DNA from: a virus
IMG/VR virus record: IMGVR_UViG_3300025417_000066
Span: 1 to 29,031 of that record
Reading direction: 5' to 3' (one strand)
Length of the DNA: 29,031 nt
Positions 25,314 through 27,620 of the stretch are shown here, piece by piece. The notes under the pieces were generated by a model. That model was not told where the DNA came from, did no database searches, and saw nothing but the letters and a program-made list of their open reading frames with translations. Each line of letters starts with the position of its first letter. Within the stretch, counting starts at the first letter, position 1. Both the position numbers and the translations under genes were made by a program.

Positions 25314-25643
25314 ATGAAGAATCCATTTAACAACCCAGCACCACTAGCACCAACCAGTGCGGCTACCCCAAATATGAAGGTAGTTAACGCTTCCGCTGCA
25401 CCTTCAGCCAACACTAAGTTGATGCCAAAGAAGAACACGGCAGCTGGCGACCCATACAAGATGGCTAAGCCATCACGCACATTCGTAAAGGCTACATCCG
25501 GGGCCCGTTACGGTGTTCGCGTTAAGTTCCAGAAGGCAGAAGCCCACGAAGCAGGCGCTACACAGGGTAACGGCCGTCTACTTCCCTCAGCTATCAAGCG
25601 TTCTTCGCAGAACTTCAGCGCAGGCATGGGTGACCATAACTAA
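25314..25643 (+). CDS. Small basic, disordered protein, unknown
   Basis: A 109-residue protein rich in Pro, Ala, Asn, Ser and Lys; about residues 1-50 are almost certainly disordered. The C-terminal part (TSGARYGVRVKFQKAEAHEAG...RLLPSAIKRSSQNFSAGMG) is basic with a few aromatic residues. A strong SD (AAGGAG, 25304-25309) lies 4 nt before the ATG, suggesting good expression. A weak promoter-like TACATT (25277-25282) lies in the 62-nt leader. A strong terminator ends the transcript just after the stop. DNA binding or a virion/packaging role is conceivable, but I do not recognise it. Confidence 0.7.
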   Translation: MKNPFNNPAPLAPTSAATPNMKVVNASAAPSANTKLMPKKNTAAGDPYKMAKPSRTFVKATSGARYGVRVKFQKAEAHEAGATQGNGRLLPSAIKRSSQNFSAGMGDHN

Positions 25644-25653
25644 TAGCTAGACA

Positions 25654-25692
25654 AATAGCCCCCGGGACTCTAGTCCGCGGGGGTTATTTTTT
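25654..25692 (+). terminator. Rho-independent terminator after the 25314 gene
   Basis: A GC-rich stem (CCCCCG-GGACT on the left, AGTCC-GCGGGGG on the right, one unpaired base) with a CT loop. It is flanked by pairing AATA/TATT and followed by a TTTTTT run. It closes the transcript upstream of hsp20. Confidence 0.88.
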
Positions 25693-25700
25693 GCTATACT
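25692..25700 (+). promoter_or_regulatory. Extended -10 promoter for hsp20
   Basis: TG-C-TATACT (25692-25700) matches an extended -10 element. It sits immediately after the terminator T run, about 58 nt before the hsp20 ATG. The region where a -35 would lie is the terminator stem and has no -35 match, which suits an extended -10 promoter. Transcription would start near 25707, at the base of a small hairpin. Confidence 0.5.
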
Positions 25701-25705
25701 TAATG

Positions 25706-25726
25706 TAGGACGCCGAACGGGTCCTA
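25706..25726 (+). promoter_or_regulatory. 5'-end hairpin of the hsp20 transcript
   Basis: TAGGAC (25706-25711) and GTCCTA (25721-25726) are perfect inverted repeats around a 9-nt GC-rich loop. If transcription starts near 25707 this stem caps the very 5' end of the mRNA, a placement known to slow RNA decay. It is separate from the SD hairpin downstream. Confidence 0.4.
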
Positions 25727-25733
25727 ACTAAAC

Positions 25734-25754
25734 TATATCGTCTAAGGAGATATA
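25734..25754 (+). promoter_or_regulatory. RNA-thermometer-like hairpin over the hsp20 SD
   Basis: TATATCGTC (25734-25742) pairs with GGAGATATA (25746-25754) around a UAA loop: six pairs (five A-U, one C-G), a G/A mismatch, a U-G wobble and a closing C-G. The right arm contains the SD GGAG (25746-25749), 8 nt before the ATG. A short, A-U-rich, imperfect stem hiding the SD of a small heat-shock gene is the usual build of an RNA thermometer. Confidence 0.5.
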
Positions 25755-25757
25755 ACA

Positions 25758-26264
25758 ATGGCTTCAGGCTACCCAACACGTAGCCCGCATGAAATGTGGG
25801 CAACTAAAGAATCAACAAAGACAGTCACAGTCAAGACCCCAGCTCAGATTGTTACAGAGCTAACCAATCACCTAGTTAACCGAGGAATCGGCTTCAATAT
25901 TCATTCCGCTTTCTTCAATGAACTGGTCAATCAATTCGATACACGATCAACCTATCCTCCGTACGACATCCTTTCAGCCGGAGAGAACAAGTACCTTATC
26001 CGCCTTGCGCTTGCAGGGTTTTCTAAGGAAGATCTGGAGATTACCTTCAAGGATCAGGTCCTTACTATTGAGGGCAAGAAGGATGACGAGTCTACTGATG
26101 AGTACTTCCACAAAGGTATTGCGGCTCGCGCATTTAAGCAGTCCTTCCCACTAGCTGAGTACGTAAAAGTAGAAGGCGCGGAGATGAAAGATGGCATCTT
26201 AACTGTAAAGCTGGAGAGAGAAATTCCAGATGAGTTAAAGCCAAAAACAATTAAGATCAAGTAA
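25758..26264 (+). CDS. hsp20: Hsp20-family small heat-shock protein
   Basis: A 168-residue alpha-crystallin-type chaperone. Residues ~75-160 form the crystallin domain: YDILSAGENKYLIRLALAGFSKEDLEITFKDQVLTIEGKK, then YFHKGIAARAFKQSFPLAEYVKVEGAEMKDGILTVKLERE, with the diagnostic MKDGILTVKL. The end carries an I-K-I (IxI) motif that locks oligomers. The ~70-residue N-terminal arm is of normal length. Small Hsps are known in cyanophages, where they are thought to help fold virion proteins. Here the gene stands alone between two terminators with its own promoter and a structured leader. Confidence 0.93.
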   Translation: MASGYPTRSPHEMWATKESTKTVTVKTPAQIVTELTNHLVNRGIGFNIHSAFFNELVNQFDTRSTYPPYDILSAGENKYLIRLALAGFSKEDLEITFKDQVLTIEGKKDDESTDEYFHKGIAARAFKQSFPLAEYVKVEGAEMKDGILTVKLEREIPDELKPKTIKIK

Positions 26265-26278
26265 TTTACTAAGCATCG

Positions 26279-26305
26279 GCCCCCGTCAAATTGGCGGGGG
26301 TTTTT
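26279..26305 (+). terminator. Rho-independent terminator after hsp20
   Basis: CCCCCGTC (26280-26287) pairs with GGCGGGGG (26293-26300), with one G-T wobble and an AAATT-type loop, followed by TTTTTGCTT. It ends the single-gene hsp20 unit. Confidence 0.88.
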
Positions 26306-26307
26306 GC

Positions 26308-26335
26308 TTGATTTGCGCGCTTTGTGTGTTACGAT
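26308..26335 (+). promoter_or_regulatory. Promoter candidate for the 26371 operon
   Basis: TTGATT (26308-26313) and TACGAT (26330-26335) are 16 bp apart, a fair -35/-10 pair with an actinobacterial-type TAnnnT -10. They lie between the hsp20 terminator and the next SD, where a new promoter is expected. Expected start near 26342. Confidence 0.4.
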
Positions 26336-26370
26336 TATCGCGTTGCAGCTTGACGAACACAAGGAGAGAC

Positions 26371-26604
26371 ATGTTAGAAGTGCTAAACAAGCACCTAGAC
26401 AGGACTTCATTAAGCGGTTGTATAGTGGCCCAGTGGATTTCTACTCTAGGTAAAGACGAACAGAAGTTATTTGAACAGATAAAGATAAACAATTCAACTG
26501 TAAAACTAGCACATCTATTTCAAGATTTACATAAAGATGTTGAGCTTCCATTTAAACTAACCGCCTTCCGCTCCCACCTTAGAGGATATTGCACATGTCG
26601 ATAA
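26371..26604 (+). CDS. Small unknown protein
   Basis: A 77-residue protein, not recognised. ATG 26371 has AAGGAGAG (26361-26368) 2-4 nt upstream; a longer in-frame ATG at 26308 lies in the promoter/terminator region and is rejected. The protein is helical (MLEVLNKHLDRTSLSGCIVAQWISTLGKDEQKLFEQI, then TVKLAHLFQDLHKDVELPFKLTAFRSHLRGYC). It overlaps the phosphoesterase start by 10 nt. The ending FKLTAFRSHLRGYCTC looks like a small fold rather than noise. No function assigned. Confidence 0.7.
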   Translation: MLEVLNKHLDRTSLSGCIVAQWISTLGKDEQKLFEQIKINNSTVKLAHLFQDLHKDVELPFKLTAFRSHLRGYCTCR

Positions 26605-27620
26605 AGACCAGCCTACTTGATGTATTAGAGAACGCAGTTACTACTACTGATACTAGCGGTTGGGCTTGGCCCCCAATCCAGCAAGCAAAACCAACTGTTA
26701 TTAAGCCCGCAGAATATAAAGAGCGTCAAGCAAGTAAGAATGGTTTTAAGTTATTTGTATTTGTTCCAGACCCACAGATCGGTTATCGTAAGTATGAAGA
26801 TGGAACACTAGATCCGTTCCACGATGAAGCAGCAATTGATGTTCACTTCCAGCTTCTTGCTTATTTAGAGAAGCGTTATGGCGTAGATGAAATTGTCCAC
26901 CTTGGAGATTATCTAGACCTACCAACAATGGGTAAGTATGCACAGGAAGAAATGTTTGCGCATACAGTACAGCCAGCCCTTGATTACGGCCACGCGTTAT
27001 TAGCAAAACAACGTGCTACCTGCCCAGATGCAAAGATAACCTTGCTAGAAGGTAACCACGATTGCCGTATGCAGAAGTATGTAACTATGAACGCTATGGC
27101 ATCTAAGGGCATTAAGCGCGCTAACTCGGCCCCTGAAGAGTGGCCAGTCATGACTATTCAATACCTATTACGTTTAGAAGAGTTAGGGATCAACTATGTT
27201 GGCGCGTATCCGGCGGGCGAGTATTGGATTACTCCTTACCTTCGTGCTATTCACGGGACTACCGTTCGTTCTAATGGGTCTACTGCATCTGCTTACGTCA
27301 ATAAGAATCCACACGTTTCTACGGTCTTTGGGCATGCCCATAGGCAGGAACTACAATACAAAACTGTAGCCAATGGGGACGGCCCTATCCGTAGTGTTAG
27401 TGCTAGCCCTGGCTGCCTTTGCCGGGTGGATGGTGCCGTACCTTCTTACGGTTCTGGCCTTAATGACAATGGTCGTCCAGTTAAACATTGGGAGGATTGG
27501 CAGCAAGGAATCATGATCGGCTGGGTGCATGAAGAAGAAGGACACTTCACACTACAGCCTATTCATATCATGGATAAGTGGGCTATTTACGAAGGCAAAG
27601 AGTTTAAGTCTAACCTCTAA
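26595..27620 (+). CDS. Calcineurin-like metallophosphoesterase
   Basis: A 341-residue metal-dependent phosphoesterase. Metal-binding motifs in order: D59-P-Q61 (usually D-x-H; Gln here), VHLGDYLDLPTMGKYA (GDxxD), LLEGNHDCRMQK (GNHD), AIHGTTV (an H-G segment) and VFGHAHRQELQ (GHxH). The ~50-residue N-terminal part is variable. A C-terminal HEEEGHFTLQPIHIMDKWAIYEGKEF closes the domain. Such phage enzymes may act on nucleotides, RNA or DNA ends. ATG 26595 is chosen with AGAGG 9 nt upstream, over an in-frame TTG at 26589. Confidence 0.9.
   Translation: MSIKTSLLDVLENAVTTTDTSGWAWPPIQQAKPTVIKPAEYKERQASKNGFKLFVFVPDPQIGYRKYEDGTLDPFHDEAAIDVHFQLLAYLEKRYGVDEIVHLGDYLDLPTMGKYAQEEMFAHTVQPALDYGHALLAKQRATCPDAKITLLEGNHDCRMQKYVTMNAMASKGIKRANSAPEEWPVMTIQYLLRLEELGINYVGAYPAGEYWITPYLRAIHGTTVRSNGSTASAYVNKNPHVSTVFGHAHRQELQYKTVANGDGPIRSVSASPGCLCRVDGAVPSYGSGLNDNGRPVKHWEDWQQGIMIGWVHEEEGHFTLQPIHIMDKWAIYEGKEFKSNL

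Follow-up and report, generated by a model that had tools for sequence, protein, structure and literature searches.

The hsp20 gene of this virus is probably controlled by a short, two-hairpin RNA thermometer of ROSE-like type in its leader, and the leader of this viral lineage appears to be a variant of a design common to phage chaperone genes. The window, by which we mean the whole 29,031-nucleotide stretch that was analysed, is a 29 kb virus record (IMG/VR IMGVR_UViG_3300025417_000066) that carries phage baseplate, DnaB-like helicase, DNA polymerase and UvsX-like recombinase genes and has relatives on contigs of up to 88-98 kb. Folding and comparative alignment show that the predicted structure of the hsp20 leader can comprise two hairpins (termed H1 and H2), that H2 can pair the Shine-Dalgarno (SD) sequence and that covarying stems flank each bulged G. 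As judged from leader sequences, the same design recurs before hsp20, dnaK and groES of diverse phages and only rarely before other genes. Cyanophage core genes include hsp20, whose role for the phage is treated as unsettled in the accessible text of one study (PMC7674155); a conserved ROSE-like leader would offer a direct and testable answer to the question of when phages make their chaperones.

The window's hsp20 leader, about 51 nt long, folds as two hairpins with one bulged G each (Table 1). In both, a single unpaired G in the 5' arm separates the lower from the upper stem, which is capped by a small loop; the two share the core Y-G(bulge)-C...G-G. The whole leader folds at -13.7 kcal/mol (z = -2.43), a stability matched by 6 of 200 shuffles, and the H2 region (25731-25757) at -4.8 kcal/mol (z = -3.06), with 2 of 200 shuffles equally stable. 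A sequence-only reading of this DNA had proposed a 21-nt stem over the hsp20 SD, and a stem was indeed found exactly at 25734-25754, with the SD masked and the pairing conserved. The G/A mismatch, U-G wobble and UAA loop which that reading ascribed to the stem can form, but the best fold instead has the bulged G25740 and a UAAG loop; since the core is invariant within the lineage, covariation is equally compatible with both registers. While the SD hairpin had been recognised, the bulged G and the second hairpin at 25706-25726 had been overlooked. The SD ends 8 nt before the ATG (25758), and the computed unpaired probabilities along AAGGAG at 25 C are, base by base, 1.0, 1.0, 0.86, 0.06, 0.22 and 0.00; the low-temperature fold is thus as first proposed, with the GAG of the SD predicted to be closed. 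The hsp20 AUG lies outside both hairpins, and its pairing varies with the length of coding sequence included in the fold. A sequence search with H1 as the pattern returned seven contigs, five from the window's lineage and two unrelated, and was uninformative. Elsewhere in the window, a bulged-G hairpin (GCUC-G-CUU-AAGU-AAG-GAGC, 1272-1296) stands before a 92-aa gene (1297-1575); it is absent in three relatives and was set aside as probably due to chance.

Table 1. Positions of the hsp20 gene, its leader elements and flanking signals in the window, and of groES genes with an SD hairpin on viral contigs
Feature	Position	Strand	Basis
Intrinsic-terminator-like hairpin and T-run, between hsp20 and the upstream gene	25654..25690	+	fold energy
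Extended -10, TG-C-TATACT	25692..25700	+	sequence; putative promoter role
Hairpin H1, at predicted mRNA 5' end: UAGGAC - bulged G25712 - CC - GAAC - GG - GUCCUA	25706..25726	+	fold
Hairpin H2, ROSE-like, SD-masking: UAUAUC - bulged G25740 - UC - UAAG - GA - GAUAUA	25734..25754	+	fold, covariation
Shine-Dalgarno AAGGAG, AAG in H2 loop, GAG paired	25744..25749	+	fold
hsp20, small heat-shock protein, 168 aa	25758..26264	+	PF00011 67.9 bits; phrog_432 Hsp20 129.2 bits
Intrinsic terminator 3' of hsp20	26278..26302	+	consensus scan
groES (Cpn10) with SD hairpin, viral contigs	L216:476-763, L155:4431-4718, L201:4450-4737

Terminators had been described on both sides of the gene, and both were recovered: downstream at 26278-26302 and upstream as a hairpin and T-run at 25654-25688, which folds at -24.4 kcal/mol (z = -4.80), a value equalled by 0 of 200 shuffles. 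The consensus terminator scan gave no + strand entry for the upstream hairpin (25654-25690). The gene had also been credited with its own extended -10 promoter; the element TG-C-TATACT is present in the sequence, but a generic -35/-10 scan of 25560-26380 returned neither a promoter nor a -35 element. In the related loci L002-L005 the -10 hexamer is TATAAT, and 6 of 17 hsp20 leaders of the lineage have the extended -10 pattern, compared to 1 of 373 other lineage genes. Judged from the position of the -10 alone, transcription would start at approximately 25707.

To sample the window's lineage, the neighbouring gene (26589-27620) was used as bait, yielding 68 related loci, 42 of which have hsp20 nearby; these provide 28 distinct leaders over 87 nt. 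Thirty lineage leaders (the window, L002-L005 and 25 others) were scored by a structure-only rule. Both hairpins were found in all 30, which are not 30 independent cases because they hold just 8 distinct forms of H2 and 19 of H1, compared to 1 of 197 other SD-bearing genes at the same loci; for the G-bulge H2 on its own, the counts were 30/30 and 14/197. Several H2 stem variants are altered in both arms (UAUAUC/GAUAUA, AGUUAUC/GAUAAUU, AGUUC/GAACU, AGUCUC/GAGAUU and UAAUCAU/GUGAUUA).

Covariation was counted within structure-consistent stretches of alignment (A3 and A5), as two others, A6 with 15 leaders and A4 with 18, placed H1 or the two bulge registers wrongly. For H2, the 12 distinct rows of A3, which exclude the long-loop variant L110, have 85% of cells paired, with all misses in the two outermost pairs. 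The H2 covariation score was 0.282, whereas shuffled alignments scored 0.079 and slid pairings no higher than 0.045, and 5 of 10 pairs show changes on both sides (2.6 in shuffles, with 15 of 500 shuffles as high). The H2 core GUCUAAGGAG is invariant in the lineage and therefore gives no covariation evidence. For H1, A5 comprises 17 leaders from the lineage and other phages, all of 19 nt and with an upper stem of 2 bp, a choice that leaves out leaders with longer upper stems. All 119 of 119 cells in this set are paired, 32 cells are changed on both sides compared to 7.8 in shuffled alignments, and the covariation score is 0.838 (0.219 shuffled, at most 0.181 slid); counted by pair, both-side changes number 4, which is not above the 3.5 of the shuffles. 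Homologous leaders had been named at the outset as the place to look for conserved pairing, and there the pairing is kept: on the evidence of these alignments, compensatory changes maintain the H2 pairing over the SD.

Beyond the lineage, the phage Hsp20 proteins compared are 28-50% identical to that of the window. Under a strict rule, H2 was found in 28 and both hairpins in 27 of 35 non-lineage phage hsp20 leaders, with the 5 leaders that lack an SD by rule scored as misses; among control genes at non-lineage loci the counts were 6/144 and 2/144, and one of those two is a phage dnaK. A looser rule raised H2 to 30/35 by adding L054 and L067, and by eye L059, L063 and L065 also carry it, which would make 33/35 and leave L041 and L061 without. 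In L082, L084 and L066 the H1 taken by the strict rule is a chance hairpin, and looser scoring recovers the conserved one. In L064 the H1 is doubtful, and L037 has none by rule. Leaders of the same plan are present in S-CRM01, P-SSM2, P-SSM3, HTVC008M, HTVC115P, Mosig, Melnitz-3, C48C1 and Phosso and, by eye, in Atu_ph07. Since these initial named phages ranked highest in the hit list, a spread sample was added that consisted of 14 records taken at even steps down the 507-record ranking, 11 of which were newly read (P-SSM5 and a second ACG-2014d record were left out, and Melnitz-3 had already been counted). With the rule relaxed to 5 pairs, both hairpins were found in 10 of the 11 newly read phages, Salicola phage SCTP-2 being the exception. 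Among the hsp20 leaders examined, the element is absent from those of Vibrio phage PWH3a-P1, contig L041 and Salicola phage SCTP-2.

Several features of these loci were observed alongside. In phage S-SSM4 (NC_020875, locus L242), an SD and a ROSE-like hairpin precede an ATG upstream of the annotated hsp20 GTG, and the annotated start is probably wrong. In Prochlorococcus phage P-SSM2, a manA RNA motif (RF01745, 181.6 bits, L066:330-527) lies approximately 450 nt upstream of hsp20. On contig L033, the gene after hsp20 (L033:6476-6784) is ClpS-like by eye and has a weak ROSE_3 match (14.4 bits) just 5' of it, and in Atu_ph07 and Phosso an annotated ClpS or Clp adaptor gene lies two genes beyond hsp20 (also L059 and L068).

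The gene neighbourhoods bear on a different reading, in which the hairpins are an operator for some other phage or host RNA-binding protein (e.g. a RegA-like repressor) that times the chaperone, with neither temperature nor Hsp20 involved. The tandem arrangement, with its invariant bulged G and G-C core, does resemble a protein-recognition unit, and a regA-like gene is directly upstream of hsp20 in eight named phages that were read. However, the element also stands before hsp20 where the neighbour is not regA, RegA binds unstructured start regions, and the nearest known architecture is that of a bacterial chaperone thermometer. We consider an operator of this kind very unlikely.

One of the control matches, on viral contig L033, was identified as dnaK (PF00012, 857 bits), directly upstream of hsp20. 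Full-length DnaK genes were found on this and other viral contigs (L033:3979-5899 and loci L139-L218), and on several of these hsp20 or groES follows dnaK. We sampled the best 80 of 593 confirmed dnaK relatives and used 78 of these 80 loci, L193 and L206 being without a start. Of the 62 distinct dnaK leaders from these best 80 of 593, 41 have a G-bulge and 21 an A-bulge SD hairpin, and none has neither. In many leaders of the same sample, H2 is preceded by a third hairpin of the GGGCAUAGUGCCC type; those with an A bulge (e.g. L161, L175, L188 and L201) read UCUUACUU...AAGGAGA, often with the third hairpin. At the adjacent dnaK and hsp20 of L033 (L033:5922-5979 and L033:3979-4036), the H1 sequences differ while the H2 sequences are nearly the same, and this comparison suggests that each gene maintains its hairpin pair independently. 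For groES, an SD hairpin is present in 3 of 3 genes, with a G bulge in two and an A bulge in one, and is not an independent rate because the genes were noticed among matches. As to the contigs themselves, of 23 dnaK contigs tested, three (278, 364 and 383 kb) gave a terminase match and the other 20 gave none, in a search that also matches in 11 of 14 control genomes; among nine neighbouring proteins on L033, four have a PHROG match, three of them to families of unknown function. The phage identity of the dnaK contigs rests mainly on their membership of the IMG/VR collection.

To compare gene classes, leaders were pooled into a set of 1017 distinct sequences, with an SD required by rule, leaders collapsed on their last 45 nt and hsp20 removed from the controls; all dnaK counts in this set refer to the best 80 of 593 relatives. 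The G-bulge H2 is present in 77/100 hsp20, 40/63 dnaK, 2/3 groES and 43/851 other leaders, and when either a G or an A bulge is allowed, these numbers become 98/100, 61/63, 3/3 and 99/851. By comparison, shuffled hsp20 leaders with the SD kept yielded the G-bulge H2 in 42 of 1000 and both hairpins in 2 of 1000 cases. An exact U(U/C)GCU string no more than 45 nt from the start was found in 51/100 hsp20, 40/63 dnaK and 42/854 other leaders, groES being included in the last group. ATAAATA, the core of T4 late promoters, occurs within 130 nt of the start in 60/63 dnaK leaders (best 80 of 593), 27/83 non-lineage hsp20 leaders and 31/478 other genes of the same phages.

Conceivably, H1 and H2 are general mRNA-end structures, serving 5' protection or ribosome standby with no regulation, and the SD pairs weakly by happenstance. 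In line with this, the median cost of opening the SD at 25 C is 3.13 kcal/mol for hsp20, close to the 2.73 kcal/mol of other genes, and lower, 0.57 kcal/mol, for dnaK (best 80 of 593). Against this, both hairpins together are gene-specific, being present in 76/100 hsp20, 26/63 dnaK (best 80 of 593) and 2/3 groES leaders of the pooled set but in only 3/851 others, and the SD pairing is upheld by compensatory changes. We accordingly give little credence to this explanation.

For the window, opening GGAG is computed to cost 6.58 kcal/mol at 25 C and 4.11 kcal/mol at 42 C, and the computed probability that it is fully open rises from about 1.5e-5 to 0.0014, which is a large relative but a small absolute change. 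The same calculation is nearly temperature-flat for the known E. coli ibpA thermometer, and because that element is flat and chaperone leaders are not set apart by their opening costs, folding energies do not decide function. In Melnitz-3, the SD is computed to be open at every temperature.

Under the thermometer reading, the ribosome site would be masked in H2 at the normal host temperature, and on warming H2 would open at the weak point around the bulged G, such that ribosomes could bind and the chaperone would be synthesised on demand; the temperature response is the presumed step of this scheme. Transcription would be set by the promoter just upstream, the extended -10 in the window and ATAAATA elsewhere, and H1 would probably act as a folding insulator or 5'-end protector, possibly as a second binding site.

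The main rival scheme makes melting secondary and the chaperone itself the sensor. Phage Hsp20 would bind its own ROSE-like leader and repress translation, which would be released when heat-damaged or phage proteins draw Hsp20 off, and dnaK and groES could be tied to the same sensor. The accessible text of one report describes such autorepression by E. coli IbpA through its own 5' UTR, with R93 essential and an aromatic residue needed at position 34 (PMC10474464). The window is like that system in having a small heat-shock gene, a ROSE-type leader as the putative control site and an equivalent of R93 (R124), and 98 of 101 aligned phage Hsp20 rows have Arg at this position; a YPPY stretch aligned with IbpA Y34 is retained in the window and its relatives, and one type of SD hairpin stands before hsp20, dnaK and groES. 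Unlike IbpA, which according to the same text needs positive charge at 97 and 98 (PMC10474464), the window's Hsp20 has uncharged Gln and Ser there, and Arg or Lys occupies these sites in 73 and 19 of 101 phage Hsp20 rows, respectively. Moreover, the conservation of R93 may be simple inheritance, because the residue is described as common in alpha- and gamma-proteobacterial IbpAs (PMC10474464, accessible text). On our analysis, titration of this kind is unlikely as the principal mechanism, and direct melting of H2 is preferred.

More tentatively, hsp20, dnaK and groES could form a shared phage proteostasis regulon under ROSE-like SD hairpins, in which the mRNA would read heat or aggregation and Hsp20 might serve as a sensor in trans; we regard this as possible but doubtful. 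Such a regulon would span T4-like cyanophages, pelagiphages, a methylophage, jumbo phages and large dnaK-bearing phages, and the idea takes note of the tandem bulged-G hairpins of the same core in most hsp20 leaders examined. A conserved ROSE-like leader would widen ROSE-type regulation beyond small heat-shock genes to include dnaK and groES. It also suggests that warming can alter phage infection via viral RNA, beyond host physiology alone. The many natural variants could also serve to dissect how the bulged G acts.

In a scan of 13 bacterial loci no donor of the element was found. The alphaproteobacterial loci L221-L224 have leaders with UUGCUU. The hsp20 leader of a 4.8 kb contig binned as Bacteroidetes (L220, JAHEGS010000121) closely resembles its counterparts on viral contigs, e.g. 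L019, and the contig is likely phage DNA in a bacterial bin.

Our search of the open-access literature found no ROSE-type thermometer and no chaperone-gene thermometer in a phage; the ROSE-G paper (PMC12857270) does not mention phage, and the phage Hsp20 papers checked do not mention 'thermometer'. Phage RNA thermometers as such are already known, and the initial statement that no phage-borne one had been described is incorrect: lambda cIII, SPbeta blyA and Caudoviricetes sigma70 are on record (PMC11182007). As in the reading proposed for the window, each is a phage mRNA leader that controls translation by temperature. In the accessible text of that source, blyA and sigma70 are of the fourU type and cIII works by alternative mRNA structures, and none of the three stands before a chaperone gene or is described as ROSE type (PMC11182007). 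The sequence-only reading had named hsp17, ROSE and fourU elements together as models; the ROSE architecture fits the window, but fourU does not, as the anti-SD arm of H2, UAUAUCGUC, is without four U.

The Rfam models for ROSE elements of bacterial small heat-shock genes include RF00435, ROSE_2 (RF01832) and ROSE_3 (RF02523). E. coli K-12 ibpA, with the SD hairpin CUC-G-CUG-AUUU-CAG-GAG, scores 100.4 bits with ROSE_2 (gathering 65), and the SD hairpin of cyanophage P-SSM2 reads CUC-G-CUU-AUUU-AAG-GAG. In the window, the best ROSE_3 match falls on the hsp20 leader at 23.7 bits (gathering 43; E = 0.015 for 701 bases). A gathering-level Rfam search of eight loci gave no match, and none of 22 records, nor any other phage leader scanned, reached a ROSE gathering score. 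At E <= 1, ROSE_3 matches the hsp20 leader in 8 of 22 records and lies elsewhere in two more, and such sub-threshold matches are weak evidence because 6 of 14 control genomes match too. Sub-threshold ROSE matches on the hsp20 or dnaK leader were found in 2 of 15 phage sources and 6 of 9 dnaK sources, the best at 38.6 bits, and in 0 of 8 cyanophage loci was there a ROSE match at E <= 5.

In the accessible text of the ROSE literature, U(U/C)GCU pairs with the SD, with a predicted bulged G, in leaders of two to four hairpins (PMC11342760, PMC3669281, PMC11182007). The full U(U/C)GCU is present in 16 of 24 distinct H2 hairpins of non-lineage phages and GCU in 20 of 24, whereas the H2 core of the window is UCGUC(U). 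In other respects the window is as in ROSE, with a single bulged G in the SD stem, the SD in the 3'-proximal of two hairpins and a small heat-shock gene behind the leader. A close arrangement is the two-hairpin ROSE-like form of Pseudomonas ibpA, contained in 61-62 nt (PMC3669281); it and the phage leaders have two hairpins, a UTR of approximately 60 nt and the SD in hairpin II. The phage H1 has an invariant bulged-G core of its own, G-CC...GG-G (17 leaders), and no such core is described for Pseudomonas ibpA in the accessible text of that source (PMC3669281), while ROSE_3, like the phage H1, has an unpaired G in the first hairpin too. ROSE_2 and ROSE_3 and the phage elements have in common an hsp20-family leader, an SD in the last hairpin and a bulged G opposite the SD; unlike ROSE, the phage elements are phage-borne, stand also before dnaK and groES, fall below the Rfam cut-offs in every source scanned and, in a subset of the dnaK leaders (best 80 of 593), have a bulged A. 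Taken together, the sequence comparisons indicate that the phage group probably works like ROSE and is of that kind, and that the window's lineage is a ROSE-like variant, filed outside the ROSE family because of its UCGUC core, its bulge at a different place relative to the SD and its sub-cut-off score.
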